Source: Dissulfurirhabdus thermomarina
GTDB taxonomy: Bacteria; Desulfobacterota; Dissulfuribacteria; Dissulfuribacterales; Dissulfurirhabdaceae
Direction: 5' to 3'
NCBI RefSeq assembly: GCF_012979235.1
Contig: NZ_JAATWC010000003.1
Location: 62,001 to 126,000, forward strand
Length of the DNA stretch: 64,000 nucleotides
Position 1 is the stretch's first letter, and every line of letters begins with the position of its first letter. Shown here one piece after another: positions 16,362 to 39,096 of this stretch. Made by a program: the position numbers and the translations under genes. Below the pieces are notes generated by a model. That model was given only the letters and a program-made list of their open reading frames with translations. It was not told the origin of the DNA and did not search any database.

Positions 16362-19238
16362 ATGACCGGGCGGGCCGAGGGGAGCCGCCGGGCCCCGGAG
16401 GCCGTCCGGCACCGCCTGGCCCGGTTTGCGGAACGGGCGGCCGGGCACGGTCTCGACCTCCCGGCGTCTCCTCCCTTTCCCCATGCCATGGAGGCGGTAT
16501 GGGACGCCAGCGAGTTCGTGGCCGGGGCCTGCGAGCGCGATCCCGACCTCCTGGCGGACCTCCTGCGCACCGGGGACCTCCTGAACCCGGCGGCGCCGGG
16601 TGACATCCACCGCCGCGTCCGGCGGGCGGCGGAGGCCGGGGACGAGGCCGCCCTCGCCGCCGCGCTCCGCCGGGTCCGCCGCCGGGAGATGGTCCGCATC
16701 GCCTGGCGGGACATCGCCGGGTGGGCGGACCTCGAAGAGACCACGGGAGAGCTCACGGCCCTGGCCGAGGCGGCCCTCGAGGCGGCCTACAGCCGGCTCT
16801 CGGCCTGGGAGCGCGCCCGGTCGGGAAGTCCCACCGGCCCCGGCGGCGCCCCCATGGACCTGGTGATCCTCGGCATGGGGAAGCTCGGCGCCGGGGAACT
16901 CAACTTCTCCTCCGACATCGACCTCGTCTTCGCCTACCCGGAGGAGGGCGAGGTCACCGGCGGGCCGGCCCCCCTCACCCACCACGAGTTCTTCGAACGC
17001 CTCGCCCGCCGCCTCATCAAGGCCATCGGGGCCGTTACGGCCGACGGCTTCGTCTTCCGGGTGGACACCCGGCTGCGGCCCTACGGGGAGAGCGGCCCCC
17101 TGGTCATGGGCTTCGACGCCATGGAGACCTACTACGAAGGCGTCGGGCGGGAATGGGAGCGCTACGCCTGGATCAAGGCCCGGCCGGTGGCCGGCGACCT
17201 GGACGCCGGGACGCGGCTCCTCGATCGGCTCCGGCCCTTCGTCTACCGCCGGTACCTGGACTTCGGGGTCTTCGAGTCCCTCCGGGAGATGAAGGCCCTC
17301 ATCCGGGCGGAAATCCGCCGCAAGGGCCTCGAGGACGACATCAAGCTGGGGCCCGGCGGCATCCGCGAGGTGGAGTTCATCGGCCAGGTCTTCCAACTCG
17401 TCCACGGGGGTCGGATCCCGGAGCTCCGCCGCCGCCGCCTCCTCGAGGTGCTACCCGTCCTGGCCGGACACGGCTTCCTCCCCGCGGAGGTCGCGGACCG
17501 CCTGGCGGCGGGCTACCGGTTCCTGCGGCGGGTGGAACACCGGCTCCAGGAATACGCCGATCGCCAGACCCACCGGCTCCCCACCGACCCGGAGGACCGC
17601 CGGCGCCTCGCCCGGGCCATGGGCTACCCGGGGTGGACGGCCTTCGCCGCCGACCTCTCCCGCGTCCGGGAGGAGATCGACGCCGCCTTCCGGGGGCTCC
17701 TGGAACCCGGGCCGAGGGCCCCGGCCGGCGACGCTGCCGGCCGGGACATGGCCGACGTCTGGCAGGCGGGCGCCGCCTCCGGCCGGGCCCGGTCGGTGCT
17801 GGCCGAGGCCGGCTACACCGACCCGGACCGGCTCCTGGCCGCCCTGGACGGTCTCCGGAAGGCCCCGTCGCTCCGCCTGCTCAGCCCCGAGGGGCGGCGG
17901 CGGCTCGACCGGCTGGTCCCGCGCCTCCTCGAGCGCGCCGCCCGGACGAAGCGGCCCCTCCAGGCCGCCCTCCGGACCCTCGCCGTCGTCGAGGCCATCG
18001 GGCGCCGGACCGCCTACTTCGCCCTGCTGGCGGAGAATCCCGGCGCCCTGGACCACCTGGTGCGCCTCTGCGAGGCCAGCCCCTGGGTGGCCGACCACCT
18101 GGCCCGCCACCCGGCCGTCCTGGACGAGCTGCTGGACCCGGCCGCCCTCATGACCCCCCCGGACCGGGGCGCCCTCGAGGCGGAACTCCGCGCCCGGCTC
18201 GGACGCCTGGATCCCGACGACCTCGAGGGCCGGATGGACGAACTCCGCCGCTTCAAGCAGGCCAACCTCCTGCGCGTGGCGGCGGCGGACCTGGCCGGGA
18301 CCCAGCCCCTCGTGGAGACCAGCCGCCGACTCACCGAACTGGCGGAGGTGATCCTGGCCGAGGTGGTCCGCATGGCCTGGGACCACCTGGAGGCCAAGCA
18401 CGGGCGCCCGCCCTGCGACTCGGCCGAAGGAGAGCCGCCCTGCTTCGCCGTGGCGGCCTACGGGAAGTTCGGCGGCGTCGAGATGGGCTACGGGTCCGAC
18501 CTGGACCTCGTCTTCCTCCACGACGGCCGCCCCGGTGCCGCCACCGGCGGGCCCCGCCCCGTGGACGTCCCGGTCTTCTTCGCCCGCCTCGGCCAGCGGG
18601 TGATCCACATCCTCGCCACCCATACCCCGGCGGGCCGGCTCTACCCCGTGGACATGCGGCTCAGGCCCAGCGGGGAGGCCGGCCTCCTCGTCAGCCACGT
18701 GGACGCCTTCGCGGCCTACCAGCGGGAACAGGCCTGGACGTGGGAGCACCAGGCTCTGGTCCGGGCCCGGGTGGTGGCGGGGCCGGAGGCCCTCGCCCGC
18801 CGGTTCGTGGAGATCCGGGCGCAGGTGCTGGCCCGGCCCCGCGACCCGGTGCGACTCGCCCGCGAGATCCGCGGGATGCGGGACCGCCTCGTCGCGGCCC
18901 ACGCCCCGGAGGGCGGCGAGGGCTTCGATCCCAAGTTCGACCCCGGGGGCATCCTGGACATCGAGTTCCTGGTCCAGTACCTGGTGCTGCTCGAGGCGCA
19001 CCGCCACCCGAAGATCCTCGAGTGGACCAGCACCATCCGGTTCATAGATGCCCTGGCCGGCGCGGGGATCCTGCCCGGGGACGAGGCCCGGCGCCTCCGG
19101 CAGGCCTACCTCGAGTACCGGGAGGCCGTGCACCGGTGCCACCTCGAGGCGCGGCCGGCCCGCGTCCCGGCGGAGCGGTTCGGGCGCCTCCGGGAAGGCG
19201 TCCGCCGCGCCTGGAGGCGACACCTCCCCCCGGGCTAG
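16362..19238 (+). CDS. glnE: Bifunctional glutamine synthetase adenylyltransferase/deadenylase
   Basis: Attaches AMP to, and removes it from, glutamine synthetase in response to PII and glutamine, adjusting ammonium assimilation. The 958-residue length fits the family. Two nucleotidyltransferase domains are visible: the first with GMGKLGAGELNFSSDIDLVF (about 170-190) and GPGGIREVEFIGQVFQLVHGG, the second with AYGKFGGVEMGYGSDLDLVFLHD (about 703-725), VDMRLRPSG, and FDPGGILDIEFLVQYLV. Both active sites look intact. It converges with the next gene only 6 bp away. No glnA or glnB is in the window. Confidence 0.96.
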   Translation: MTGRAEGSRRAPEAVRHRLARFAERAAGHGLDLPASPPFPHAMEAVWDASEFVAGACERDPDLLADLLRTGDLLNPAAPGDIHRRVRRAAEAGDEAALAAALRRVRRREMVRIAWRDIAGWADLEETTGELTALAEAALEAAYSRLSAWERARSGSPTGPGGAPMDLVILGMGKLGAGELNFSSDIDLVFAYPEEGEVTGGPAPLTHHEFFERLARRLIKAIGAVTADGFVFRVDTRLRPYGESGPLVMGFDAMETYYEGVGREWERYAWIKARPVAGDLDAGTRLLDRLRPFVYRRYLDFGVFESLREMKALIRAEIRRKGLEDDIKLGPGGIREVEFIGQVFQLVHGGRIPELRRRRLLEVLPVLAGHGFLPAEVADRLAAGYRFLRRVEHRLQEYADRQTHRLPTDPEDRRRLARAMGYPGWTAFAADLSRVREEIDAAFRGLLEPGPRAPAGDAAGRDMADVWQAGAASGRARSVLAEAGYTDPDRLLAALDGLRKAPSLRLLSPEGRRRLDRLVPRLLERAARTKRPLQAALRTLAVVEAIGRRTAYFALLAENPGALDHLVRLCEASPWVADHLARHPAVLDELLDPAALMTPPDRGALEAELRARLGRLDPDDLEGRMDELRRFKQANLLRVAAADLAGTQPLVETSRRLTELAEVILAEVVRMAWDHLEAKHGRPPCDSAEGEPPCFAVAAYGKFGGVEMGYGSDLDLVFLHDGRPGAATGGPRPVDVPVFFARLGQRVIHILATHTPAGRLYPVDMRLRPSGEAGLLVSHVDAFAAYQREQAWTWEHQALVRARVVAGPEALARRFVEIRAQVLARPRDPVRLAREIRGMRDRLVAAHAPEGGEGFDPKFDPGGILDIEFLVQYLVLLEAHRHPKILEWTSTIRFIDALAGAGILPGDEARRLRQAYLEYREAVHRCHLEARPARVPAERFGRLREGVRRAWRRHLPPG

Positions 19239-20332: not shown

Positions 20333-20734
20333 ATGAAACCGAAGGCCCTCATCGTCGAAGACGACGAACAGTTCGCCTTTCTCGTGGGATACATCTTCTC
20401 GCGGGAGGGCTACGAGATCGTCCATGCCCCGGACAGCCGGGCCGCCCTCGAGGCCACGGCCCGGCTGGCCGGGCCGCCCGCCTTCGTGCTCCTGGACCTC
20501 ATGCTGCCCTACATGGACGGCTTCCAGCTCCTCTCCGAGATCCGCCGGACCCCCGGGTGGCGCCGGGTCCCCGTTGTGGTGCTCTCGGCCCGGACCGCCG
20601 AGGCCGACGTGGTCCGGGCCCTGGACCTCGGGGCCGACGACTACGTCCTCAAGCCCTTTCGGCCGGAGGAGCTCCTGGCCAGGGTGCGCCGGGCCGTGCG
20701 ATCGCGGCGGCGGCAGCAAGAGGAACCGGTATGA
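20333..20734 (+). CDS. Stand-alone response-regulator receiver protein
   Basis: A 133-residue CheY-like protein with no output domain. DD at residues 9-10 (VEDDEQ), the phospho-acceptor Asp in LLDLMLPYMDG, the Ser in VLSAR, and the KPF lysine are all present. It opens a six-gene set in which almost every junction is an overlap; its stop overlaps the YaiO-type gene start (ATGA). Likely phosphorylated by the histidine kinase five genes later and acting by protein contact on the membrane synthase, but this is inference. Confidence 0.88.
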   Translation: MKPKALIVEDDEQFAFLVGYIFSREGYEIVHAPDSRAALEATARLAGPPAFVLLDLMLPYMDGFQLLSEIRRTPGWRRVPVVVLSARTAEADVVRALDLGADDYVLKPFRPEELLARVRRAVRSRRRQQEEPV

Positions 20735-21921
20735 AGGCCGCCGGGGCCCTCCTCCTGGCCGTCCTCCTGGCCGCGGCCCCCGCCCTCGGGGCCCCCCCGG
20801 AGGCGGCCCGGCGGGCGGCGGCCGCCGGGGATCTCGCCGCGGCCCGCCACGCCCTCGAGCGCTGGCTGGCCGGGCATCCCGACGACGACGACAGCCGTTT
20901 CCTCCTGGCCCGGGTCCTCGCCTGGCAGGGGCACCACGGGGCGGCCCTCGAGCAATACGATCGCCTCCTCCGGTCCGAGCCGGCGAACGCGGACTTTCTC
21001 CTGGAAAAGGGGCGGACCCTCCTCTGGGCCGGGCGGCCCCGGGCCGCCGCCGATGTCCTCGCCAGGGCCAGGGAGCTGGCCCCGGACTACGCCGAGGTCC
21101 GGCGCCTCGAGATCCTCGCCCTCCGCCGCGTGGACACGCCGGCGGCGCACCGGGCGGCCGATCGCCTCCTGGCCGAGGCCAGGACGCGCTTCCCGGAGGA
21201 GGACTGGCCGCCGGGGCCCGGCGACCGGCCCCGGTGGCAACTGGCGGCCGGGGCCCGGGTGAGCGCCCTGGACAACGGCTACGACGACTGGACCGAGTTC
21301 GGGCTCCGGCTCGACGGCCTCGCGGCCGGGGACCGATTCCACGGCCAGATCCGCCAGACCCGGCGCTACGGCCGGACCGACCGGGAAGTGGCCGTCGGGG
21401 GGGCCTTCCCCATCGCCCCCCGGCTGGAGCTCGTGCTGGATCTCCGGGCCAGCCCCACCCACCGGGTCCTGTGCAAGTGGGCCGCGGAGGGGGGACTGGA
21501 GGCGCGGCCGGGCGGCGGCTGGGTGGTCTCCGCCCGGGTACGGCGCACCGAGTACGACACCTCCCGCGACCTCCGCGGCGCCTTCACCCTCGAACGCTAC
21601 GCCGGCGCCTGGCACGCCGCCTACACCCTCACCGCCACCCGGCTCGCGGGCGGCGGCACGGCCGTGGGTCAAAGGGCCCGGCTGGACCGGTCCTACGGCG
21701 CCGACGGGCGCAGCCTCGTGGGCCTGACCTGGGCGGTCGGGGAAGAGGTCGAGAACATCGGCCCGGACAACCTCCTCGAGTCCCACGTCTGGGCCCTCAT
21801 CCTCTCCGGCCGGCACTGGGTGACGGCCCGGTGGGGCCTCTGGTGGTCGGCCGGCATCCACCACCAGGACGACTTCTACGACCGAAGGGAGGCGGGCCTT
21901 GGGCTCCTCGTTCGGTTCTGA
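20731..21921 (+). CDS. YaiO-type outer-membrane beta-barrel protein with N-terminal TPR repeats
   Basis: Likely outer-membrane channel or anchor. The 396-residue protein has a signal peptide (residues 1-20, cleavage after PALG), then TPR-like helical repeats (about 22-150; e.g. ALEQYDRLLRSEPANADFLLEKGRTLLWAGRPRAA split over two repeats), then a beta-rich part with alternating hydrophobic and aromatic strands ending in LLVRF, a typical outer-membrane C-terminal Phe. TPR followed by barrel resembles PgaA and BcsC, which export PNAG and cellulose. It is coupled to the membrane HEAT protein and the glycosyltransferase. Confidence 0.8.
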   Translation: MKAAGALLLAVLLAAAPALGAPPEAARRAAAAGDLAAARHALERWLAGHPDDDDSRFLLARVLAWQGHHGAALEQYDRLLRSEPANADFLLEKGRTLLWAGRPRAAADVLARARELAPDYAEVRRLEILALRRVDTPAAHRAADRLLAEARTRFPEEDWPPGPGDRPRWQLAAGARVSALDNGYDDWTEFGLRLDGLAAGDRFHGQIRQTRRYGRTDREVAVGGAFPIAPRLELVLDLRASPTHRVLCKWAAEGGLEARPGGGWVVSARVRRTEYDTSRDLRGAFTLERYAGAWHAAYTLTATRLAGGGTAVGQRARLDRSYGADGRSLVGLTWAVGEEVENIGPDNLLESHVWALILSGRHWVTARWGLWWSAGIHHQDDFYDRREAGLGLLVRF

Positions 21922-22951
21922 CCACCTCGTCCTCATGGCGGAGGCGGCCGGCCTCCTGGCCTTCGTCCTCTCCGGGGCCCTCCTCGTCCAGATCCTCGTC
22001 CTGCACTGGCGCCGGGGCATCCGGGCGCGGCGCCGGCGGATCGTGGAGGACCGGTGGCGTCCCGTCCTGCTCAAGGCCCTCTACGGCATCCCGGACCGCC
22101 CGCCGCCCCTGGCCGCGGGCGAGGCCAGGCCGGTCCTGCGGCTCTGGACCCGGATGCACGCGTCCGTCCGGGGGGCTGCCCGGGACCGCCTCGTCCGCCT
22201 GGCCCGCGAGGTGGGCGCCCCGGACCGGGCCCGGGCCCTCTTCCGGAGCCGGCGCCTCCGGGACCGGCTGCTCGCCACCACCGCCCTCGGCCGCATGCGG
22301 TCGTTGGACGACTGGGACGAGGTGGCCCGGCTCCTCGGCCACCGCCACGCCATCCTCGCCCTCACGGCGGCCCGGGCCCTGATCCACATGGACGCCGAGC
22401 GCGCCGTGGAGATCCTGGTGCCGCTCCTGGTGGAGCGGGACGACTGGTATCCCTTCCGCGGCCTCGCCCTCCTCCGCGCGGCCGGCCCGGGGGTCGTCTC
22501 CCGCCCCCTGGCCGGGGCCCTGGAGTCGGCCTCCTGGCGGGGGCGGCTGCGGCTGCTCCGGTACCTCGAGGCCGCCGACCCGTCCGTGGCCGCCGGGGCG
22601 GCGCGCCCCATCGCCCGCACCACCCGGAACCCCGCGGTCCTCGCCGCCTGCCTCCGGCTCCTGAAGACACCGGAAGACCTCGACCTGGTCCGCCGCCACC
22701 TGGAGCACCCCGCCTGGGAGGTCCGGGTCCGGGCCGCGGTCGCCCTCGGCCGACTCGGGACCGAGGCGGACGTCCCCCGGCTCGAGGCCCTGCTCTCCGA
22801 CCGGGAGTGGTGGGTCCGCTACCGGGCGGCCCAGGCCCTGGCGGCCATGCCCTTCGTGGACCGGGCGCGGCTCGAGGCGATCCGGCGCCGCCACCCGGAT
22901 CCCTTCGCCCGGGACATCCTCGGCCAGGTCGCGGCGGAAGGAGCGGCATGA
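21899..22951 (+). CDS. Membrane-anchored HEAT-repeat protein
   Basis: 350 residues. An N-terminal membrane helix (about 12-36, MAEAAGLLAFVLSGALLVQILV) is followed by Arg-rich sequence and then several 30-residue alpha-helical HEAT-like repeats; the last ones read HPAWEVRVRAAVALGRLG and DREWWVRYRAAQALAAM. Such domains are scaffolds. The TTG start is used because GGGAGG lies 6-7 nt upstream; ATG at 21935 is the alternative. It overlaps the YaiO-type gene by 23 bp, and its stop overlaps the glycosyltransferase start. The context suggests it links the synthase to other envelope parts, perhaps in place of a co-polymerase. Confidence 0.78.
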   Translation: MGSSFGSDHLVLMAEAAGLLAFVLSGALLVQILVLHWRRGIRARRRRIVEDRWRPVLLKALYGIPDRPPPLAAGEARPVLRLWTRMHASVRGAARDRLVRLAREVGAPDRARALFRSRRLRDRLLATTALGRMRSLDDWDEVARLLGHRHAILALTAARALIHMDAERAVEILVPLLVERDDWYPFRGLALLRAAGPGVVSRPLAGALESASWRGRLRLLRYLEAADPSVAAGAARPIARTTRNPAVLAACLRLLKTPEDLDLVRRHLEHPAWEVRVRAAVALGRLGTEADVPRLEALLSDREWWVRYRAAQALAAMPFVDRARLEAIRRRHPDPFARDILGQVAAEGAA

Positions 22952-24357
22952 ACACCGCGGATCTCCTCACCGCCCTCCAGGGGTTCTTCGTCGCCTACTT
23001 CCTCTGCCTGAACGGAAGCTACATCGCCTTGAACCTGGTGGCGCTCTTCACCCTCGCCCGCCACATCCAGGACCGGGACTACGACCTCGCCACCCAAGTG
23101 GCCCCGGAGTTCGCGCCGCCGGTGAGTCTCCTCGTCCCGGCCCACAACGAGGCCGCCACCGTGGCGGCCACGGTGCGATCCCTGCTCCAGCTGGACTACC
23201 CGGCCTTCGAGGTGGTGGTGATCAACGACGGGTCCACCGACGCCACCCTCCAGTCCCTCGTCGAGGCCTTCGACCTGGTCCCCTTCCCCGAGGCCTACCG
23301 CGTGCGCCTCGCCACCCGCCCCGTCCGGGGCCTCTGGCGGTCCACCCGCCACCCCAACCTCCGGGTGGTGGACAAGGCCAACGGGGGCAAGTCCGACGCC
23401 CTGAACGCGGGGCTCAACGCCGCCCGCCACCCCCTGGTCTGCACCGTGGACGCCGACTCCATCCTGGACCGCAAGAGCCTCCTCCAGGTGGCCCGTCCCT
23501 TCATGGAAGACCCGGACACCGTGGCCTGCGGGGGCACCATCCGGGTGGCCAACGGGTGCGCGGTGCAGGGCGGCTTCCTGGTGAAGGCCGGGCTCCCGCG
23601 GAACCTCCTGGCCCTCTTCCAGGTGGTGGAATACCTCCGGGCCTTCCTCTTCGGGCGGCTCGGCTGGGCCCCCCTGAACGCCTTGCTCGTCATCTCCGGC
23701 GCCTTCGGCCTCTTCCGGAAGGACACCGTGATCGCCGCCGGGGGCTACCGGACGGACACCGTGGGGGAGGACATGGAACTCGTGGTCCGCCTGCACCGGT
23801 GGTGCCGGAGCCGCGGCCGCCCCTACCGCATCGCCTACGTCCCGGATCCCATCTGCTGGACGGAGGTGCCGGAGACGGCGGCGGTCCTCTTCCGCCAGCG
23901 CGTCCGGTGGCAGCGCGGCCTCTGGGAGAGCCTCGTCATGAACTCCGGGCTCTTCCTCAACCCCCGGGCCGGCGCCGTGGGTCTCCTGGCCTATCCCTTC
24001 TTCGCGGTGTTCGAATGGCTGGGCCCCCTGGTGGAGGTGGCGGGCTACGTCCTCGTCGGCCTCGCCTGGGCCCTCGGCCTCCTCTCCCACGAGGCCTTCC
24101 TGGCCTTCCTGGCCGTGGCCGTGGGGCTCGGCGTCCTGCTCTCCCTCGCGGCCATCTTCATGGACGTGTTCGCCTTCCGAGTCTACCCCCGGACCCGCGA
24201 CACCCTGATCCTGGCGCTCGCCGCCGTGGCGGAAAACCTCGGCTACCGGCAGCTGACGGCCTTCTGGCGGCTGTGGGGGATCCTCGCCGGCATGCTTCGG
24301 ATGCGGGCCCGGTGGGGATCGGAGACGCGCATGGCCTCCTGGAACCGGGCGTCATGA
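22948..24357 (+). CDS. Processive family 2 glycosyltransferase, membrane polysaccharide synthase type
   Basis: 469 residues. Membrane helix near 10-35, then a GT2 catalytic domain: LLVPAHNEAATVAATV, VVINDGSTDAT (first Asp), KANGGKSDALNAGL, TVDADS (second Asp), VGEDMELVVRL (ED, acceptor-site Asp), and QRVRWQRGLWES (QxxRW). Three or four C-terminal membrane segments follow (about 345-440). This D,D,D,QxxRW arrangement marks processive synthases such as PgaC/IcaA, hyaluronan and cellulose synthases; PgaC-like is the nearest by eye. No PilZ domain is fused. The sugar substrate cannot be told. Coupled upstream (ATGA) and downstream. Confidence 0.88.
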   Translation: MNTADLLTALQGFFVAYFLCLNGSYIALNLVALFTLARHIQDRDYDLATQVAPEFAPPVSLLVPAHNEAATVAATVRSLLQLDYPAFEVVVINDGSTDATLQSLVEAFDLVPFPEAYRVRLATRPVRGLWRSTRHPNLRVVDKANGGKSDALNAGLNAARHPLVCTVDADSILDRKSLLQVARPFMEDPDTVACGGTIRVANGCAVQGGFLVKAGLPRNLLALFQVVEYLRAFLFGRLGWAPLNALLVISGAFGLFRKDTVIAAGGYRTDTVGEDMELVVRLHRWCRSRGRPYRIAYVPDPICWTEVPETAAVLFRQRVRWQRGLWESLVMNSGLFLNPRAGAVGLLAYPFFAVFEWLGPLVEVAGYVLVGLAWALGLLSHEAFLAFLAVAVGLGVLLSLAAIFMDVFAFRVYPRTRDTLILALAAVAENLGYRQLTAFWRLWGILAGMLRMRARWGSETRMASWNRAS

Positions 24358-24527
24358 AGGCCCCCCGCGGGGAAGCGGCGCGAAGCACCGCGGCAGCCGG
24401 CCGTCTTGGCGGCGCCATCAACCTTCGGGGCGAAATGCCGATGAGAACACGGGGAACCCCCGAGACCCAGTCTCCCGGCCCCGGGATACCGCCGCGGAAC
24501 CCGGCGGCCCGGGCCGAAGAGGTGAAG

Positions 24528-25673
24528 ATGGCGGAAGATCCAGGCATGGCCCTCCTCTCCGGCGGCACCCGGCCCGCCGCCCCGGCGCGGGACGGGCCGG
24601 GCGACCCGTGCACCGGCCGCTGCTTCTACAACGAGATCCTCGAGAACCTCGACATCGGGGTCCTCATCCTGGACCTCGGCCGGCGGCACCTCCTCTTCGT
24701 CAATCCCTCCTCCGCCCTCCTCTTCCAGGACCTCGAGGCCCCGAAGGACTTCGAGGCCCTCTGCCGCCTGCTCCTGCCCGGGGCGGAGGACCTCGGCCAG
24801 GCCGCGGCCCGCCTGGAGGGGACCCCCCAGAGCCTCCGGATCGGGGACCGGCTGCTGGGCTACACCATCTACCGGATCGCCGAGGAGACGCTCTGCGTCT
24901 TCGTCCGGGACATCACGGAAAAGGCCCGGCTCGAGGCCATCGCCCAGGCCGTGAACACCATGGACAACATCGGCTACATCTTCTCCGGCATCCGGCACGA
25001 GATCGGAAACCCCATAAATTCCATCAAGATGGCCATGACCGTCCTCCGGAACAACCTCGCCACCTTCTCCCGGGGCGACATCGCCCGGTACGTGCACCGG
25101 GTCCTCGGCGAGATCACCCGGCTGGAATACCTCCTCAAGTCGCTCAAGAACTTCAGCGCCTTCGAAAGGCCGAAGCTGGCGCCCGTGGCCCTCGGCGCCC
25201 TGATGGACGACTTCCTGGCCCTCGTCCGGGACGACTTCGGCCAGAAGGGCATCGAGATCACCTGGGAAGCGGCGGAGGACCTCCGCGTCCACACCGATCC
25301 ACGGGCCCTCCACCAGGTGCTCCTCAACGTCCTCACCAACGCCGCCGACGCCCTGGAAGACCGGCCCCGGCCCCGCATCCGGCTCTCCGCCCGGCGGCGG
25401 GACCGGTTCGTCGAGGTGACCGTGGAGGACAACGGCCGGGGCATCCCCGAGAAGGAACTCCCCAACGTCTTCAAGCCCTTCTACACCACCAAGGCCCACG
25501 GCACCGGGCTCGGGCTCGTCATCGCCCAGAAGATGCTGGCCCGGATGGACAGCGAGATCCGCATCGAGAGCACCGAAGACGCGGGCACGCGGGTGACCCT
25601 CACGCTGCCGGCGGCCGGGGAGCCCGACGCCCCCGGGCGGCCGGCCGCCGAACACCACCGGAGCACGTCATGA
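24528..25673 (+). CDS. Soluble sensor histidine kinase
   Basis: 381 residues from the chosen ATG, which has GAGG 6 nt upstream; an earlier ATG at 24354 overlaps the glycosyltransferase stop (ATGA) but adds a low-complexity Ala/Pro/Arg stretch. Domains: PAS-like (about 25-130: NEILENLDIGVLILDL...VRDITEKARLE), phospho-acceptor His in IRHEIGNPINS (about 165), a two-helix dimerisation domain, and an ATPase lobe with NVLTNAADAL, DNGRGIP and GTGLGLVIAQ. No membrane segment, so it probably senses a cytoplasmic cue. The next gene, a receiver protein, overlaps its stop; both receivers in the operon are possible targets. Confidence 0.85.
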   Translation: MAEDPGMALLSGGTRPAAPARDGPGDPCTGRCFYNEILENLDIGVLILDLGRRHLLFVNPSSALLFQDLEAPKDFEALCRLLLPGAEDLGQAAARLEGTPQSLRIGDRLLGYTIYRIAEETLCVFVRDITEKARLEAIAQAVNTMDNIGYIFSGIRHEIGNPINSIKMAMTVLRNNLATFSRGDIARYVHRVLGEITRLEYLLKSLKNFSAFERPKLAPVALGALMDDFLALVRDDFGQKGIEITWEAAEDLRVHTDPRALHQVLLNVLTNAADALEDRPRPRIRLSARRRDRFVEVTVEDNGRGIPEKELPNVFKPFYTTKAHGTGLGLVIAQKMLARMDSEIRIESTEDAGTRVTLTLPAAGEPDAPGRPAAEHHRSTS

Positions 25674-26830
25674 AGCACGTCCTCATCGTCGACGACGAGG
25701 AATCCCTCCTCCTCACCCTCCAGGAAGGCCTCCAGGCCTACTCGGACCAGTTCCGGGTCATCACCGCCCGGGACGGCCAGGAGGCGGTCTACACCCTGAG
25801 CCACAAGCCGGTGGACCTCGTGGTGACGGACCTCAAGATGCCGAAGATGGGAGGGCTGCGGCTGCTGGCCTACATGAGCCGGAACCACCCCGAGGTACCC
25901 GTCATCGTCATGACCGCCTACGGCACCCACGAGATCGAGCGCCAGATCGAGGAACTCGGCTACGACCGCTACCTCGAAAAGCCCCTGGACTTCGACGTCC
26001 TCACCCACCGCATCTTCGACGCCCTCAAGAGCGCCGAGAAGAAGGGCCACATCAAGGGCATCACCATCGACACCTTCCTCCAGCTGGTGGAGATGGAGAA
26101 GAAGACCTACACCCTCAAGATCGAGCACAAGGGGCGCTTCGGTTTCATGTACTTCCGGGACGGCGAGATCCTCGACGCGGAGACCGGGGGGCTCACCGGG
26201 GAGGAGGCGGCCTACGAGATCATCTCGTGGTACGAACCCGCCATCAAGATCTTCAGCGGGTGCCGGAAGAAGAAGAAGAACATCGAAGTCCCCCTCACCC
26301 ACCTCCTCATGGAGGGCTTCCGGATCCGCGACGAGCGGGGCCCCGACGTGGACGAGGGCCAGGCCGAGATGGAGGTGGAAGTGGAGATGGAGGCACCGGA
26401 GCCGGACGAGCCGCCGGAGGCGGCCGGCGATCCCCGGCAGGCCCGCCGGGCCGCGCTGGCGGAGGGCTTCGAGTCGCTCCTCGAGGAGCTGCGCACCGTG
26501 AAGGGGTACGTGGCCTCGGCCATCCTGAGCTTCACCGGGGAGCTCCTGGTGGGCCACACCTTCGACAAGCACCTGGACCTCGGCCTCATCGGCGCCACCC
26601 TGAACGACGTCTTCCGGTCCACCGACGACGCCTGCGGCCGGATCGGCTTCGAGACCTGCGAGACCGCGGCCTACACCACCCCGGGGGGCGTGCTCCTCAT
26701 GTGCGGTTCCGCCCCCGGGGCCGAGGTCCGGTTCCACCTCATGGCCGTCCTGAAGCCCGACGGCAACCAGGCCCTCATGAAGATCAAGCTGCGGAATCTC
26801 CTGCCGGTCATCACCAACATGCTGTCCTGA
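25670..26830 (+). CDS. Response regulator: receiver - DUF4388 - roadblock/LC7
   Basis: 386 residues. Receiver (1-120) with VDDEE, Asp in VVTDLKMPKMGG, and EKPLD. A DUF4388-like middle domain (about 125-215) contains GRFGFMYFRDGEILDAETGGL. An acidic linker (E/V/P-rich, about 228-250) leads to a roadblock/LC7 domain (about 262-386: EELRTVKGYVASAILSFTGELLVG). Such proteins are common in deltaproteobacteria; roadblock domains often partner small GTPases, as in MglB. No DNA-binding domain, so output is by protein contact. Last gene of the six-gene unit; a GC inverted repeat (about 26852-26866) follows within the next, opposite gene. Confidence 0.85.
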   Translation: MKHVLIVDDEESLLLTLQEGLQAYSDQFRVITARDGQEAVYTLSHKPVDLVVTDLKMPKMGGLRLLAYMSRNHPEVPVIVMTAYGTHEIERQIEELGYDRYLEKPLDFDVLTHRIFDALKSAEKKGHIKGITIDTFLQLVEMEKKTYTLKIEHKGRFGFMYFRDGEILDAETGGLTGEEAAYEIISWYEPAIKIFSGCRKKKKNIEVPLTHLLMEGFRIRDERGPDVDEGQAEMEVEVEMEAPEPDEPPEAAGDPRQARRAALAEGFESLLEELRTVKGYVASAILSFTGELLVGHTFDKHLDLGLIGATLNDVFRSTDDACGRIGFETCETAAYTTPGGVLLMCGSAPGAEVRFHLMAVLKPDGNQALMKIKLRNLLPVITNMLS

Positions 26831-27054: not shown

Positions 27055-28212
27055 TCACGCCGGCCCCGGCAGCCGGTCCTCCTCCTGCCGCCGCAGCCAG
27101 AGGCCGAGCACCGGGTCCACCACCCGCCAGGGGGCCCCGGGGGCCGGCCGCTCCACCAGGTCCAGCTCCTCAAGCCGCCGGAGGGAATGCTGGACACCCC
27201 CCACCGAGCCCAGGCCGTGGCGCTGGATGAACCCCGCGCCCAGCGGGGCCGCCGAGGGTTCGAAGGCGAGGGCCCGGAGGAGCCGCCGCTGGTGGGGCGA
27301 GATCCCCTGGAGGACCGCCTCGAAGACCGGCGCCTCGGAGCGGACGAGCCGCTCGAGGGCACCGTCGAGGGCCTTCAGGCAGATCCGGCCGCCGCCCGTG
27401 TGGAGCAGGAAGGCCAGCTTCTGGGCATAGTAGGGATGCCCGGCCGCCAGCTCCACCAGGCGCCGGGCCACCTCCGGCGGGCAGGTGCGCCCGCCCGCGG
27501 CGAAACGCTCGACCAGGTAACGGGCCAGGTCCTCCGGCGGCAGCGGGCCCAGGGGGTAGTTGATGGCGGCCCGGAAGAAGGGCCGCTGGCGCTCGTTGAA
27601 GATCCCGAGGAGCACCCGCCGGCGGCTCCCCACGAAGAAGTACGAGGCCCGGTGTCCCTGGATGTGCCGCCGGAGCGCCGCCTCCACCGAGAGCGCCCCC
27701 CGGAGGGTGACGATCTCCTGGAACTCGTCCAGGGTGACCTGCACGGGGGCCCCGCCCTCCCGGACGAAGGCGCCCAGGGATTCCATCGTCCCCTCGAGGA
27801 GCTCGAGCCCCGTGGCCCCGGTCCCGGCGGGCTCCACCGTGAGGGTGAAGCCGCCGCCGGCGTCGGGCTTGAGGACCGGGCGGAAGGAGCGCATCACCCG
27901 GAGGGCCGTCCGCCAGAGCGGCTCCCGCCCGTGGGTCACCCGGAAGACCGCCTTGGCCAGCCGGGCGGCCACGTCGTCCACGGAGGTCACCCCGAAGAAA
28001 TCCACGAAGACCGTGACCGCCCCATCGACCCGGAGCCGGTCCTGGACCCGCTTCACCAGCGAGGTCTTCCCGTAGCGCCGGGGGGAATAGACCACCACGT
28101 TCCCCCCCGCCCGGGCATAGGCGAGAAGCTCCGCCAGTTCCCGCTCCCGGTCGCAGAAGGGGGCGTCCGGGGGGATCTCCTGGAGCTGGAAGGGATTCTT
28201 CTCTACGGGCAT
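27055..28212 (-). CDS. Archaeal-type AAA ATPase
   Basis: A 385-residue STAND-like P-loop ATPase of the kind abundant in archaea. Walker A is VYSPRRYGKTSL (about 42-53); Walker B VTLDEFQE follows near residue 160; a sensor-like VGSRRRVL comes next. The C-terminal ~100 residues form a winged-helix-like region (QHSLRRLEELDLVERP). Function is unknown; such proteins occur near defence and toxin-antitoxin loci or as regulators. The ATG at 28212 is preferred to one seven codons upstream because that one falls at the predicted transcription start. Transcribed with the zinc-ribbon gene from its own promoter. Confidence 0.8.
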   Translation of the reverse strand: MPVEKNPFQLQEIPPDAPFCDRERELAELLAYARAGGNVVVYSPRRYGKTSLVKRVQDRLRVDGAVTVFVDFFGVTSVDDVAARLAKAVFRVTHGREPLWRTALRVMRSFRPVLKPDAGGGFTLTVEPAGTGATGLELLEGTMESLGAFVREGGAPVQVTLDEFQEIVTLRGALSVEAALRRHIQGHRASYFFVGSRRRVLLGIFNERQRPFFRAAINYPLGPLPPEDLARYLVERFAAGGRTCPPEVARRLVELAAGHPYYAQKLAFLLHTGGGRICLKALDGALERLVRSEAPVFEAVLQGISPHQRRLLRALAFEPSAAPLGAGFIQRHGLGSVGGVQHSLRRLEELDLVERPAPGAPWRVVDPVLGLWLRRQEEDRLPGPA

Positions 28213-28238
28213 GTCGCGCCGGGCCGGGGACACCCGGT

Positions 28239-28362: not shown

Positions 28363-30481
<2,119 letters not shown>

Positions 30482-30485
<4 letters not shown>

Positions 30486-30793
30486 AACCGGACCGGGGCG
30501 AGCGGCTGGGGCGCGAGGTGCACCGCAAGGCGGGACGCAAGCTCCGGGCCCGGGCCCAGGGGCGCCGCGGCATCTGGTTCGGGCTCGGCATGTTCGGGGT
30601 GATCGGCTGGTCCGTGGCGGTCCCCGCGGTGGCCTTCACCGCCCTGGGCGTCTGGCTGGACCGGCACTGGCCGGCGGACTTCTCCTGGACCCTCACCCTC
30701 CTCTTCATCGGTGTGGGGGTCGGCTGCCTGAACGCCTGGTACTGGGTCCGGGAACACACCCGGCCCGAGGATGCGGAGGACGAGACCCGATGA
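30482..30793 (+). CDS. atpQ: N-ATPase AtpQ (AtpI-like) membrane protein
   Basis: A 103-residue AtpI-family protein with a basic N-terminus and two membrane segments (about 33-56 GLGMFGVIGWSVAVPAVAFT and 66-90 FSWTLTLLFIGVGVGCLNAW). AtpI-like proteins assist c-ring assembly or Mg2+/Ca2+ handling; the role of AtpQ in N-ATPases is not proven. The GTG start overlaps the atpC stop (GTGA), and its stop overlaps the atpR start (ATGA). Position between epsilon and AtpR is diagnostic. Confidence 0.85.
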
Positions 30794-31089
30794 CCGGCCC
30801 GGCACCGCTCGCCCTCTCCGCCGCCGCCGGCGCCCTGATCGGGGCCGCCTTCTTCGGCGGCCTCTGGCTCACCCTCCGCCGGCTTCCGGGGGCCCGCCGG
30901 CCGGGGCTCCTCGCCGCGGCCAGCTACGCGCTCCGCCTCGGGTTGGCCGTGGCGGGCTTCGCCGCCGTCTCCGGCGGGCGATGGGACCGGCTCGCCGCCT
31001 GCCTGGCGGGCTTCGTGGCGGCGAGGATCGCCATGGCCCGGCGCCTCGGCCCCGGGCGGGAAAGGGAGGCCGCACCGCCGTGCAGATGA
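30790..31089 (+). CDS. atpR: N-ATPase AtpR membrane protein
   Basis: A 99-residue hydrophobic protein with about three membrane segments (APLALSAAAGALIGAAFFGG, LLAAASYALRLGLAVAGFAA, RLAACLAGFVAARIAMA). Several Arg residues lie inside or at the edges of helices (YALRLG, AARIAMARR), a feature of the AtpR family. AtpR occurs only in N-ATPase operons and has been proposed to interact with the c-ring carboxylates. Coupled at both ends by ATGA overlaps. Confidence 0.82.
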   Translation: MTGPAPLALSAAAGALIGAAFFGGLWLTLRRLPGARRPGLLAAASYALRLGLAVAGFAAVSGGRWDRLAACLAGFVAARIAMARRLGPGREREAAPPCR

Positions 31090-31802
31090 ACCCGGACCAA
31101 GTCGTCCTCTGGTACCTCCACGGGGTGCCGGTCAACGCCACCGTCTTCTTCACATGGGTGGTGATGGTATTCCTCGTGGTGGGCTCCTGGCTGGTGACCC
31201 GCCGGCTCTCCCACGGGCCGGAGATGGGCCGCTGGCAAAACCTCCTGGAGGTCGTGGTGACGGGAATGCGGGACCAGATCCGCCAGGTGACCCGGCAGGA
31301 CCCGGGCGACTACCTCCCCTTCGTGGGGACGCTCTTCCTCTTCATCGCCGTCTCGAACCTCCTGGCCGTGGTCCCGGGGTTCCACCCGCCCACGGGGTCG
31401 CTGTCCACCACGGCGGCCCTGGCGATGGCGGTCTTCGTGGCCGTCCCGGTCTTCGGCGTGGCCCGCCAGGGCCTGTGGGCCTACCTCGCCCAGTACCTCA
31501 AGCCCACGCCGTTCATGCTCCCCTTCAACGTCATCGGGGAGCTGTCGCGGACCCTGGCGCTGGCGGTCCGCCTCTACGGGAACATCATGAGCGGGGTGGT
31601 CATCGGGGCCATCCTGCTCGGGGTGGCCCCGTTCTTCTTCCCCGTCTTGATGCAGCTTCTCGGCCTGCTCACCGGGCTCATCCAGGCCTACATCTTCGCC
31701 GTGCTCGCCATGGTCTACATCGCCTCCGCCGCCACGGCCCACCGCCGGACGGTGGCGAAGGAGGGGGAAGCGCCCGCCCCGCGCCCGTCCCAAGGCGGAT
31801 AA
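31086..31802 (+). CDS. atpB: N-type ATPase a subunit
   Basis: Membrane stator subunit that forms the ion half-channels. 238 residues with five or six membrane segments. The essential arginine is R162 in AVRLYGNIMSG, corresponding to E. coli R210. PFNVIGELSRTLALA and GLLTGLIQAYIFAVLAMVYI flank it. The last ~25 residues are polar. The stop is followed by an 83-bp spacer before atpE, the only sizeable gap in the operon. Confidence 0.93.
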   Translation: MNPDQVVLWYLHGVPVNATVFFTWVVMVFLVVGSWLVTRRLSHGPEMGRWQNLLEVVVTGMRDQIRQVTRQDPGDYLPFVGTLFLFIAVSNLLAVVPGFHPPTGSLSTTAALAMAVFVAVPVFGVARQGLWAYLAQYLKPTPFMLPFNVIGELSRTLALAVRLYGNIMSGVVIGAILLGVAPFFFPVLMQLLGLLTGLIQAYIFAVLAMVYIASAATAHRRTVAKEGEAPAPRPSQGG

Positions 31803-31885
31803 GCGCCGGCGGGACGCACAAAGACGCATGCCGCCGCGGTGCGGAAGCCCCGCGGCCATCACGCAGAAGGAGGACACATCGCCCC

Positions 31886-32164
31886 ATGGACAACCTCGGA
31901 CTCGTCGCCGCCGTCTCCATCGCCGTCTCCGGCCTCACCATCGCCGTGGGGTCCATCGGCCCGGCCCTGGGCGAGGGCCGCGCCGTGGCCCAGGCCCTCG
32001 GCGCCATCGCCCAGCAGCCGGACGAGGCCAACACCATCACCCGGACCCTCTTCGTGGGGCTGGCCATGGTGGAATCCACCGCCATCTACTGCTTCGTGGT
32101 GGCCATGATCCTCATCTTCGCCAACCCCTTCTGGGACTACTTCCTCTCCCGGGCCGGAGGCTAG
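31886..32164 (+). CDS. atpE: N-type ATPase c subunit with two carboxylates
   Basis: Rotor-ring subunit: 92 residues, two membrane helices joined by the polar loop AQQPDEA. Helix 2 carries the ion-binding motif MVESTAIY with Glu63, Ser64, Thr65 and Tyr68, which match the Na+ ligands of Ilyobacter c subunit. Helix 1 has Glu30 (GPALGEGRAVAQ) where Ilyobacter has Gln32. Two carboxylates per subunit is typical of N-ATPase rings, and one such ring characterised biochemically was large and proton-binding, so Na+ versus H+ use is open. A strong AAGGAGG ribosome site (about 31867-31873) would boost expression, fitting the high c copy number. Confidence 0.95.
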   Translation: MDNLGLVAAVSIAVSGLTIAVGSIGPALGEGRAVAQALGAIAQQPDEANTITRTLFVGLAMVESTAIYCFVVAMILIFANPFWDYFLSRAGG

Positions 32165-32166
32165 CC

Positions 32167-32934
32167 GTGGAGATCCACTGGCCCACGGCCGTGGCCCAGG
32201 CCGTGAACTTCCTGGTCCTGGTCTTCCTGCTCAAGCGGTTCCTCTACGGGCCCGTGATCCGGGCCATGGACCGGCGGGAACGCGGCATCGCCGAGCGGAT
32301 CGCGGCCGCCGAGCGGCGCGAGGCCGCCGCCCGGCGCGAGGCCGCGGCCTACCAGGAAAAGGTCCGGGAGATCGAGGCCCAGCGAGAGGCCCTCCTGGCC
32401 GAGGCCCGGACGGCCGCCGAGGCCCTCCGGAAGGATCTCCTCCGAGAGGCCCGGGCCGAGGTGGAGGAACTGCGCCGCCGCTGGCGGCGCGACGTGGAGC
32501 GGGAACGGGCGGACTTCCTCGCCCGGGTCCGGCGCGAGTTGGCCCGGATGGCCCTTGCGGCGGCGGGGACGGTGCTCCGCGACCTGGGCGGCCCCCCCGT
32601 GGAGGAACGGATCGCCGAGGCCTTCCTGGAACGGCTCGCCGCCCTCGGCGACGAAGACCGGCGGCGGCTGGCGGAGGGCGACGCGGGAGAGGTCGAGGTC
32701 GCCTCCGCCGCCCCCCTCCCCGCCGGCCTCCGCGACCGGATCGCCGCCGCCGTCCAGGAGATCACCGGCCCCCGGCGGATCCGCTTCACCGAGGCGCCGG
32801 ACCTCGTGGCCGGCCTCGCCCTCCGAACCCCCGAGGTCACCGTGGAGTGGAACGCCGCCGACCACCTCCAGGGGCTCGATGAGCGGCTCGAGGCGGCCCT
32901 GTCGGCCCCGGAGCCGACCGGGACGCCGGGCTGA
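32167..32934 (+). CDS. atpF: N-type ATPase b subunit (b fused to delta-like region)
   Basis: Peripheral-stalk subunit: 255 residues, about 100 longer than a standard b subunit. One N-terminal membrane helix ([18 protein letters not shown]), a long highly charged coiled coil (about 35-135), then a C-terminal globular part (about 140-245) with [19 protein letters not shown] and [19 protein letters not shown] that stands in for the missing delta subunit. GTG start with GGAGG 7 nt upstream. Confidence 0.9.
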
Positions 32935-32945
32935 GAGGCACGGCC

Positions 32946-34505
32946 GTGGCCCTGCTCGACGAGGCACTGGCCCAAACCGCGGCGGCCTTCGACGCCCTGG
33001 CCGACTCGGCGCCGCCGCGCCTCGAGGCCCGGGAGTTCGGCCGAGTCCTCGACGTCGGAAACGGCGTCGCCCGGGTCGGCGGGGTGGCCGGGGTCCGCTC
33101 CCAGGAACTCCTCCGGATGAACGGCGGCGTCCTGGGCATCGCCTTCAACCTGGACCCCGGGGAGGTCGGCGTCATCCTCCTGGGCGACCATCCCTCCCTG
33201 GCGGCCGGCTCGCCGGTGCGTCGGACGGGCCGCGTGGTGGACACCCCGGTGGGGCTCGGCCTCCTCGGCCGAGTCCTCGACGCCACGGGCCGCCCCCTGG
33301 ACGGCAAGGGCCCCGTCGCCGCCGAGGACCGCTGGCCGGTGGAACGGCAGGCCCCGGCCATCATGGACCGCGCCCCGGTCAGCGTCCCCCTGGCCACCGG
33401 CCTCAAGGTGGTGGACGCCATGGTCCCCATCGGCCGCGGGCAGCGGGAGCTGATCCTCGGCGACCGCCAGACCGGGAAGACCACCCTCGCCCTGGAGGCC
33501 ATCCTGAACCAGCGCCCCGACGACGTCATCGGCGTCTACTGCGCCGTGGGGCAGCGCACCGCCGCCGTGGCGCGGGTGGTGGAAGACCTCCGCCGCCACG
33601 GGGCCCTCGACCGGTGCATCGTGGTGGTGGCCTCCGGCGACGACCCGGCCGGGCTCCAGTTCATCACGCCCTATGCCGCCACCACCATGGCGGAGTACTT
33701 CGTGGAACGGGGCCGCGACGTCCTCGTGGTCTACGACGACCTCACCCACCACGCCCAGGCCTACCGGGAGCTGAGCCTGCTGCTGCGCCGGCCGCCCGGC
33801 CGCGAGGCCTTCCCCGGCGACATCTTCTACATCCACTCCCGGCTCCTCGAACGCGCCACCCGCCTCCGCGAGGACCTCGGGGGCGGCTCCCTCACCGCCC
33901 TCCCCATCGCCGAGACCGAGGCGGGCAACCTCTCCGCCTACATCCCCACCAACCTCATCTCCATCACCGACGGCCAGGTCTACCTCTCGCCGGACCACTT
34001 CCAGAAGGGGCTGCTGCCGGCGGTGGACGTGGGGCGCTCCGTCTCCCGGGTGGGAGGCAAGGCCCAGCTGCCGGCCTACCGGGCCGTCACGGGGGAGCTG
34101 CGCCTCGCCTACGCCCAGTTCGAGGAGCTCGAGACCTTCGCCCGCTTCGGCACCCGGCTCGACGACGCCACCCGGCAGGCCCTGGAGCGCGGGCGGCGGG
34201 TGCGGGAGGTCCTCAAGCAGGACCAGTACCGTCCCCTCCCCCCCGCCCTCCAGCTCGCCGCGCTCCTGGCCGCCGCCCGGGGCCTCTTCGACGCGGTGCC
34301 CCTGGACGACATGGCCCGGGCGGAGGAACTGGCGCGGGAGGCGGTGGCCCGGGAGCTCCCCGAGACCTGCGCCCGGATCGAGGCCGGGGCGCCCCTGGCG
34401 CCCGACGACCTCGACCGGATGGCGGCGGTGATCCGGGCGGCGCTGGCCCCGTGGGCGCCCCCGGCCGACGCCGGGGCCATGGAGGAGCCGGATGCCCGCC
34501 CTTGA
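32946..34505 (+). CDS. atpA: N-type ATPase alpha subunit
   Basis: Non-catalytic nucleotide-binding F1 subunit, 519 residues, GTG start. Walker A is GDRQTGKTT (about 175-183); also visible are [57 protein letters not shown], and the arginine-finger region [11 protein letters not shown]...[13 protein letters not shown]. Full length. The last 14 bp overlap atpG. Confidence 0.96.
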
Positions 34506-37898: not shown

Positions 37899-38094
37899 CC
37901 TGGATCCGTGGGCGTTCAAGGACGAGCCAGGTGCAAGGCGGCAACGTTGCGTATAGAGTTGCCAACTCGGGCAGATGGCCCGTCATCGGGCGCCCGAAGG
38001 GCGGCGGGGCCGCCATGTGAGGATCATGCTTCGCCCACGGCCTCGAGTTCCAGACAACACGCCCCAATGCGTCGCAACGCCGCCACGGATCCGG
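37899..38094. repeat. Dispersed intergenic repeat, copy 2, same orientation as copy 1
   Basis: About 196 bp, starting CCTGGATCCGTGGGCG like copy 1 and ending CGCCACGGATCCGGG (one mismatch in the 12-bp terminal inverted repeat). Shared internal blocks occur in the same order as in copy 1; the main difference is a gap in the first third. A stem GGCAAC/GTTGCC can form near 37941-37964. It fills most of the gene-free stretch 37862-38187; the rest shows only the ribosome site of the next gene. Together with copy 1 it brackets the N-ATPase region. Confidence 0.8.
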
Positions 38095-38187
38095 GAGATT
38101 CCCCGCGCCGCCTGCTCATGGTATCCTAGCATGGATCATGGCGGGGATCTTGCCGCCCCGCCGGGAAAAATCCAAGGGGACAAAGAG

Positions 38188-39096
38188 ATGAACCCCCAAG
38201 GCGACCCGAACCCGCCCGAGCCGGTGTGCATCCTCCTCGTGGAGGACAACCCCACCGACGCCGCCCTCATCCAGGAGATCCTGGCGGCGAAGGCCACCCA
38301 CGAGTTCGACGTGCACCACGTGGACACCCTGCGCAAGGCCGAAGGCTACCTCGACCGCATGGGCTGCGACATAGTCCTCCTGGACCTCAACCTCCCCGAC
38401 GGCCGGGGCCTCGAGGTCCTCGACCGGGTCCAGGCCCGGGCGGCGGACACCCCCGTGGTGATCATCTCGGCGGTGGAAGACGAGCAGCTCGCCCTGGAGG
38501 CGGTCCGCCGCGGCGCCGAGGACTACCTCTTCAAGGGCCAGGCCGACCCGGCCCTCATCGTCCGCTCGCTCCGCTACGCCCGGGAACGCTACCGGCTCCG
38601 CATGGAGCTCAGGTCCCTCACCCTCACCGACGAGCTCACGGGCTGCAACAACCGCCGGGGCTTCTTCACCCTGGCGGCCCAGGTCTTCAAGACGGCGCGG
38701 CGGGCGGGGGCGGTGCTCGAACTCCTCTTCGTGGACATGGACAACCTGAAGGCCATCAACGACCGGATGGGCCACGAGGCGGGGGACCAGGCGCTGGCCG
38801 CCCTCGGCACCCTCCTCCGGAAGGTGGTGCGCGAGCCGGACGTGGTGGCCCGGGTCGGCGGCGACGAGTTCGCCGTCCTCGCCCAGGTCTCGGGGAAAGA
38901 CGCCGGCAAGGCCCTGGAGAAGAGGATCCTGAAGGCCATCGAGGCCTACAACGCCGGGGTCGAGGCCGACCGGCGGCTCTCCGTCAGCATCGGGCGGGCG
39001 GCCTGCACCATGGAGGACGACTGCACCATCACCGAGATGCTGGCCCGGGCCGACGAACTCATGTACCGACACAAGAAGGCCAAGAACGCCCCCTGA
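38188..39096 (+). CDS. Response regulator with GGDEF domain (diguanylate cyclase)
   Basis: Makes cyclic di-GMP from two GTP on phosphorylation of its receiver. 302 residues: receiver (about 10-130) with VEDNPTD, Asp in VLLDLNLPDGRG and the lysine in LFKGQ (KG rather than KP); a short linker helix; then a GGDEF domain with DELTGCNNRRGFF and intact active-site VGGDEFAV. RxxD (REPD) lies five residues before GGDEF, so the product-inhibition site is present. AGGGGA precedes the ATG. A monocistronic gene right after repeat copy 2; no cognate kinase adjoins. Confidence 0.92.
   Translation: MNPQGDPNPPEPVCILLVEDNPTDAALIQEILAAKATHEFDVHHVDTLRKAEGYLDRMGCDIVLLDLNLPDGRGLEVLDRVQARAADTPVVIISAVEDEQLALEAVRRGAEDYLFKGQADPALIVRSLRYARERYRLRMELRSLTLTDELTGCNNRRGFFTLAAQVFKTARRAGAVLELLFVDMDNLKAINDRMGHEAGDQALAALGTLLRKVVREPDVVARVGGDEFAVLAQVSGKDAGKALEKRILKAIEAYNAGVEADRRLSVSIGRAACTMEDDCTITEMLARADELMYRHKKAKNAP

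Follow-up and report, generated by a model that had tools for sequence, protein, structure and literature searches.

Do the six co-directional, closely spaced genes found at one locus of Dissulfurirhabdus thermomarina encode a single polysaccharide synthesis and export system, and what controls it? The locus lies within a stretch of 64,000 nt (hereafter the window; assembly GCF_012979235.1, contig NZ_JAATWC010000003.1, positions 62,001-126,000, forward strand); all positions below follow the numbering of the window, in which the region under study is 20333-26830. A sequence-only reading had proposed a self-contained six-gene system with a regulatory core independent of c-di-GMP. All six open reading frames were located where that reading put them, and Pfam and NCBIfam searches bore out the receiver, the TPR and YaiO-barrel protein, the HEAT-repeat protein, the GT2, the HisKA/HATPase_c kinase and the receiver-DUF4388 protein. 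The features of the region are as follows.

20333-20734, plus strand: RR1, a stand-alone receiver of 133 aa (PF00072, 93 bits, Pfam); core gene
20731-21921, plus strand: YaiO-family outer-membrane protein of 396 aa (TIGR04390, 113.7 bits, cut-off 32); core gene
21899-22951, plus strand: membrane-anchored HEAT-repeat protein, 350 aa when read from TTG (PF13646, 57.6 bits); core gene
22948-24357, plus strand: processive-type GT2 synthase of 469 aa (PF13641, 90.7 bits); core gene
24358-24527, plus strand: gap between GT2 and kinase, probably non-coding (flat codon-position GC; start of kinase homologues)
24528-25673, plus strand: soluble PAS histidine kinase, 381 aa from ATG 24528 (HisKA, HATPase_c); neighbour, not core
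25670-26830, plus strand: receiver-DUF4388 protein with a further C-terminal domain (PF00072, PF14332); neighbour, not core

The upstream neighbour of the region is glnE (glutamine synthetase adenylyltransferase, 16362-19238). Downstream, an AAA ATPase of the ATPase_2 type is encoded on the opposite strand (27055-28233, minus), followed by an alternate (N-type) F1F0 ATPase cluster (28552-34505) in which the alternate-ATPase models match beta, AtpQ-like gene1, F0 A, F0 B and alpha. A receiver-GGDEF protein of 373 aa is encoded at 37975-39096, about 11 kb downstream of the cassette. A sigma-70 promoter scan of the region gave no match, although such a scan says little at this GC content.

The sequence-only reading had nearly all neighbouring genes overlapping. 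ATGA overlaps were indeed seen at the RR1/YaiO, HEAT/GT2 and kinase/receiver-DUF4388 junctions, whereas the YaiO/HEAT overlap depends on the start codon chosen: it requires TTG 21899, and the alternative ATG 21935 leaves 13 bp between the genes. An overlap of GT2 and kinase through ATG 24354 is unlikely, as the codon-position GC of 24354-24527 (0.72/0.69/0.78) is unlike that of the kinase proper (0.69/0.44/0.95); the surrounding genes have values of 0.65-0.83/0.37-0.56/0.91-0.97. Because this segment lacks the codon-position GC of the flanking genes, the start codon of the kinase is most likely ATG 24528, which follows a GAGGTG-like site and lies 170 bp after GT2. The kinase homologues begin at a position equivalent to about 24528.

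We then asked which of these genes travel together. GT2 relatives were collected by scanning 84,980 species genomes, and the best 80 (46-61% identity), which as top matches are biased to close relatives, were taken together with 9 from the phylum of the window. Dereplication at 80% identity left 53 loci with upstream sequence, 42 of which had 3 kb on both sides; this set covers about ten phyla, including Pseudomonadota, Nitrospirota, Gemmatimonadota, Fidelibacterota (Neomarinimicrobiota), Spirochaetota, Myxococcota, Bacillota and Actinomycetota. The gene order receiver-YaiO-HEAT-GT2 recurs among these relatives. The sequence-only reading had suggested looking for co-occurrence, and HEAT was found with GT2 in 53 of the 53 loci, directly 5' and on the same strand in 50. 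Within the 3-kb flanks of the 42 loci, a YaiO-type protein was detected in 32 and an RR1-like receiver in 31, a receiver-synthase linkage of the sort expected of a two-component phosphorelay, while a GGDEF gene was present in 13 and a polysaccharide deacetylase in 4. The commonest junction was the ATGA overlap (HEAT-GT2, 53/69; receiver-YaiO, 32/41). Judged from these comparisons, conserved linkage and ATGA junctions exceed chance.

A survey of 247 genomes from the phylum of the window, free of the bias towards close relatives, found GT2 in 10, and the HEAT profile matched over its full or nearly full length beside GT2 in nine of these ten; in the tenth (G028) the match was partial and lay one ORF upstream. 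Among the matches listed, the other HEAT-profile hits in the 247 genomes were partial and fell in generic HEAT proteins, and (nearly) full-length matches reaching the N-terminal anchor occurred only beside GT2 genes. Because full-length HEAT and GT2 occupy the same genomes, the two appear to behave as an obligate pair. One GT2 homologue (L012, G065:C1:1524967-1526313) has a single in-frame TAA and is possibly a pseudogene or the result of a sequencing error.

The kinase and the receiver-DUF4388 gene behaved differently from HEAT, and at other loci neither was a conserved neighbour of the cassette. In genus g172, of the same order, the receiver-DUF4388 protein has orthologues (39-50% identity); the kinase lay beside them in seven of eight regions, and no YaiO, HEAT or GT2 was present in the flanks of these regions. 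Gene neighbourhood thus identifies the two as a separate pair, next to the cassette, and the unit as four genes, receiver-YaiO-HEAT-GT2 (20333-24357), not six. The sequence-only reading had staked its case on GT2 homologues not occurring routinely without the other five genes; they do occur without the kinase and receiver-DUF4388 genes, but not without HEAT. Its roadblock domain could not be recovered either: Pfam gave no roadblock match in the receiver-DUF4388 protein or in its C-terminal piece, searching the whole genome with PF03259 up to E=10 gave none at that place, and hhalign against the genome's true roadblock protein returned a probability of 0.5%.

The cassette itself may be a newcomer. 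The order of the window almost lacks GT2: 45 other genomes yielded one strong homologue (43%, on another contig) and four distant ones. In a GT2 tree (a quick build with SH-aLRT support only) the GT2 of the window grouped with Pseudomonadota-type sequences (support 100), apart from same-phylum sequences. Given this rarity and placement, we infer a horizontal acquisition that brought the four-gene cassette in upstream of a kinase pair already resident there. Other loci carry further genes. In a same-phylum variant (L015:9452-14222 and L020:10250-14938), HEAT and GT2 accompany a large TPR protein, a PF01522 deacetylase and a TPR/barrel protein, with a 468-aa ORF between HEAT and GT2 in L020. A 508-aa protein that matches no Pfam family is encoded directly 3' of GT2 in Stutzerimonas (L039:9489-11012) and is conserved across the Stutzerimonas loci, and in Syntrophomonas a PIG-L de-N-acetylase and a group 1 glycosyltransferase (L043:2658-4465) lie a few kb upstream of receiver-HEAT-GT2.

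Next, the proteins were considered individually. GT2 carries the processive-type motif set that had been read from the sequence (D94, D170, E274-D275, Q317xxR320-W321), and these D, D, ED and QxxRW core residues were invariant in 89 of 89 aligned proteins. One N-terminal transmembrane helix and C-terminal membrane helices frame the protein, whose predicted model has a pLDDT of 91.9. Along its whole length the model resembles hyaluronan and cellulose synthases, the membrane part included, and Foldseek gave hyaluronan synthase as its best match. VIA-align gave the highest Z (31.8, 338 residues) to PcManGT, an archaeal mannosyltransferase, followed by hyaluronan synthase (29.0, 394 residues, taking in the membrane part) and BcsA (about 25). 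Since the best-Z match is PcManGT, the modelled fold does not prove processivity. Pfam detected neither PilZ nor MshEN in GT2, which ends after its membrane helices.

For the outer-membrane partner, the TIGR04390 score places the protein well inside the YaiO family. It has a signal-like N-terminus, TPRs and a barrel, and its model (pLDDT 93.7) shows TPR-like helices followed by 14 strands, in agreement with the proposal that TPRs precede a beta-barrel. The top Foldseek matches were BcsC, and the best barrel matches in VIA-align were FadL-type channels, CymA and OmpG. CymA is a cyclodextrin channel and shows, by analogy, that this kind of barrel can pass bulky sugars. With long flanks, a YaiO-type protein was missing from the three Bacillota/Actinomycetota loci and present in 32 of 39 others, a distribution that fits an outer-membrane role on small numbers. 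YaiO was undetected near about one quarter of the relatives, some of them not monoderm.

HEAT has one N-terminal membrane helix followed by a strongly basic stretch, and the positive-inside rule gave an N-out/C-in orientation for 69 of 70 members. Because of this orientation, the HEAT solenoid is predicted to be cytoplasmic, facing the GT2 active site. The sequence-only reading had HEAT standing in for a co-polymerase. The main domain of the co-polymerases BcsB and Alg44 is periplasmic, and a periplasmic co-polymerase role for HEAT was rejected on the predicted topology. As a cytoplasmic solenoid contradicts a role of the BcsB/Alg44 type, the topology suggests that HEAT acts in a PgaD-like manner or as a control platform.

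The claim of a core independent of c-di-GMP found no support in the family, unlike the observation behind it. Pfam indeed found no recognised c-di-GMP domain, PilZ included, in the six window proteins, and in RR1 both the KPF motif and the phospho-acceptor region look intact. However, a gene for a (Hpt-)receiver-GGDEF-receiver protein lies immediately upstream of HEAT or one gene away in Gemmatimonadota, Fidelibacterota and others. RR1 scored 64-110 bits against the C-terminal receiver of these GGDEF proteins and 29-63 bits against the inner one, and by sequence similarity this C-terminal receiver is the orthologue of RR1 in several phyla. Hpt-receiver-GGDEF genes also adjoin the cassette in Stutzerimonas and in a Burkholderiales relative, and in the genome of the window about 13 matches to GGDEF and 11 PilZ domains were counted. 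Based on these genomic matches and on the GGDEF genes and fusions at relatives' loci, c-di-GMP appears to be both available in the genome and evolutionarily linked to the cassette. In a single Spirochaetales MAG, the GT2 relative (L079:7950-9662) has a C-terminal Hpt domain (PF01627, 41 bits, intact HKMKG motif) and is surrounded by a dCache-HAMP-PAS kinase and three receivers; this fusion, direct evidence at the level of domains, makes it plausible that a phosphorelay controls the synthase itself.

As to the product, no deacetylase was found by Pfam among the six window genes, while in 7 of the 9 same-phylum relatives a PF01522 deacetylase and TPR proteins follow GT2. Since this deacetylase recalls poly-N-acetylhexosamine systems, our best guess, by analogy, is that the product is a polymer of an N-acetylhexosamine.

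The above findings were weighed against three other explanations. A divergent PNAG (Pga) operon, with a PgaC-like GT2 making poly-GlcNAc, HEAT replacing PgaD and the deacetylase coming from elsewhere or lost, would account for PgaC_IcaA being the best NCBIfam match of GT2 (147 bits), for the deacetylase adjoining GT2 in same-phylum variants and for the three PF01522 proteins encoded elsewhere in the genome of the window. The TPR-barrel exporter is a further likeness, and PgaD, a small obligate membrane partner, is a functional analogue of HEAT. Moreover, a 2020 survey described pga-like operons lacking pgaB and pgaD, with no mention of a HEAT partner (PMC7112194). Nevertheless, 147 bits is far under the 422-bit equivalog cut-off of PgaC_IcaA, YaiO scored 28 bits against a cut-off of 367 for the PgaA export porin model, and its modelled barrel has 14 strands. 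The deacetylase is missing from 38 of the 42 relatives with flanks; the cassette has neither PgaB nor PgaD, and HEAT bears no relation to the PgaD that has been described. We therefore regard a divergent PNAG operon as unlikely, while giving it the best chance of the three.

That GT2 might instead be non-processive and decorate a lipid or protein, with YaiO as an unrelated porin, draws on the top Z of PcManGT and on the single N-terminal membrane helix; the invariant QxxRW, the hyaluronan synthase alignment extending through the membrane part of the model, the tight linkage to a TPR-barrel protein and the deacetylase partner in relatives make this quite improbable. Least probable of all, and to be given little weight, is the original proposal of one six-gene system, free of c-di-GMP and run by the soluble kinase with both receivers. 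The shared direction and short gaps of the six genes, the ATGA overlap of the kinase pair and the lack of PilZ or other c-di-GMP domains speak for it, and RR1 could still receive its phosphate from the local kinase. A six-gene operon is nonetheless rejected on account of the probably non-coding 170-bp gap between GT2 and kinase and of the independence of the kinase pair, found in seven g172 genomes with no cassette next to it, and RR1-type receivers are linked to GGDEF elsewhere.

We consider it reasonably probable that the locus is a synthase-dependent exopolysaccharide cassette, HEAT-gated via RR1. The analysis shows gene conservation, catalytic motifs, and predicted folds and topology; polymer production, the HEAT-GT2 and RR1-HEAT contacts and the identity of the sugar are inferred in the following model. 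GT2 would polymerise a sugar, probably N-acetylhexosamine, from a UDP-sugar at the cytoplasmic side and thread the chain through its own membrane helices; the periplasmic TPRs of YaiO would guide the chain and its barrel release it outside. HEAT, held by its one-helix anchor with the solenoid beside the GT2 active site, would be the obligate activator or docking subunit that senses the phosphorylation state of RR1 and gates the synthase. Because relatives have the same receiver module either fused to a diguanylate cyclase or encoded next to one, c-di-GMP probably joins this control. The kinase and receiver-DUF4388 proteins would be a separate pair, next door by happenstance.

That such an export system, with a YaiO barrel, HEAT and a processive-type GT2, is self-contained and distinct from Pga, Bcs and Alg was a part of the sequence-only reading that our results support, as is the lack of a deacetylase, a BcsB-like co-polymerase gene and PilZ in Pfam and NCBIfam searches of the six genes. 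The nearest analogue in logic is the E. coli pair NfrB-NfrA, in which a GT2 and a TPR-barrel protein are under local c-di-GMP control; at some Pseudomonas loci a diguanylate cyclase is linked to the system (PMC8669469, PMC8669472). Like the cassette, NfrB-NfrA-YbcH (N4 glycan receptor) combines a QxxRW GT2 with a TPR-barrel outer-membrane protein in overlapping genes and without deacetylase or BcsB. However, NfrB carries MshEN, a c-di-GMP domain, at its C-terminus, and the NfrA barrel has 16 strands; the cassette lacks MshEN, its modelled barrel has 14 strands, and it includes a receiver gene and encodes HEAT as a separate protein. BcsABC shares the synthase fold and a TPR-barrel exporter, BcsC being the top Foldseek match of YaiO, but the cassette is without PilZ, BcsB and BcsZ. 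The hyaluronan synthases of Chlorella virus and Xenopus are the closest full-length processive synthase structures (Z about 29), yet are only about 16% identical and work without a HEAT partner. The E. coli YaiO-YaiP pair has the YaiO family barrel in common with the cassette; in E. coli the GT2 gene yaiP lies near yaiO, and we know of no HEAT or receiver gene described there. EmbRS of Rubrivivax was discarded as a precedent, its clusters being of the unrelated Wzx/Wzy and Kps types. In the literature searched, which covered few subscription papers, we found no description of the HEAT-GT2 pair, nothing on YaiO with YaiP, only incidental mentions of YaiO with exopolysaccharide, and nothing relevant on HEAT repeats with c-di-GMP, exopolysaccharide or glycosyltransferase.

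The cassette is apparently a widespread, undescribed kit for making and exporting a polymer, a variant among synthase-dependent exopolysaccharide systems. Systems of this type produce the matrix of biofilms and receptors used by phages, and in most of those characterised the switch is c-di-GMP, which binds to the synthase or to a partner. A bolder proposal, which we advance tentatively and rate as possible rather than probable, is that the cassette represents a new class of phosphorelay-gated synthases, in which a receiver (in some lineages together with an Hpt fused to the synthase) exerts post-translational control over a cytoplasmic HEAT protein that GT2 needs for its activity; this step would replace the usual c-di-GMP receptor domain or precede it. 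The culturable hosts Stutzerimonas stutzeri, Lysobacter and Methylobacillus carry the cassette, which makes it directly testable. If true, a synthase tied to a cytoplasmic HEAT protein and a phospho-receiver would be a new control logic, and the cassette would probably make a new or under-recognised surface glycan.
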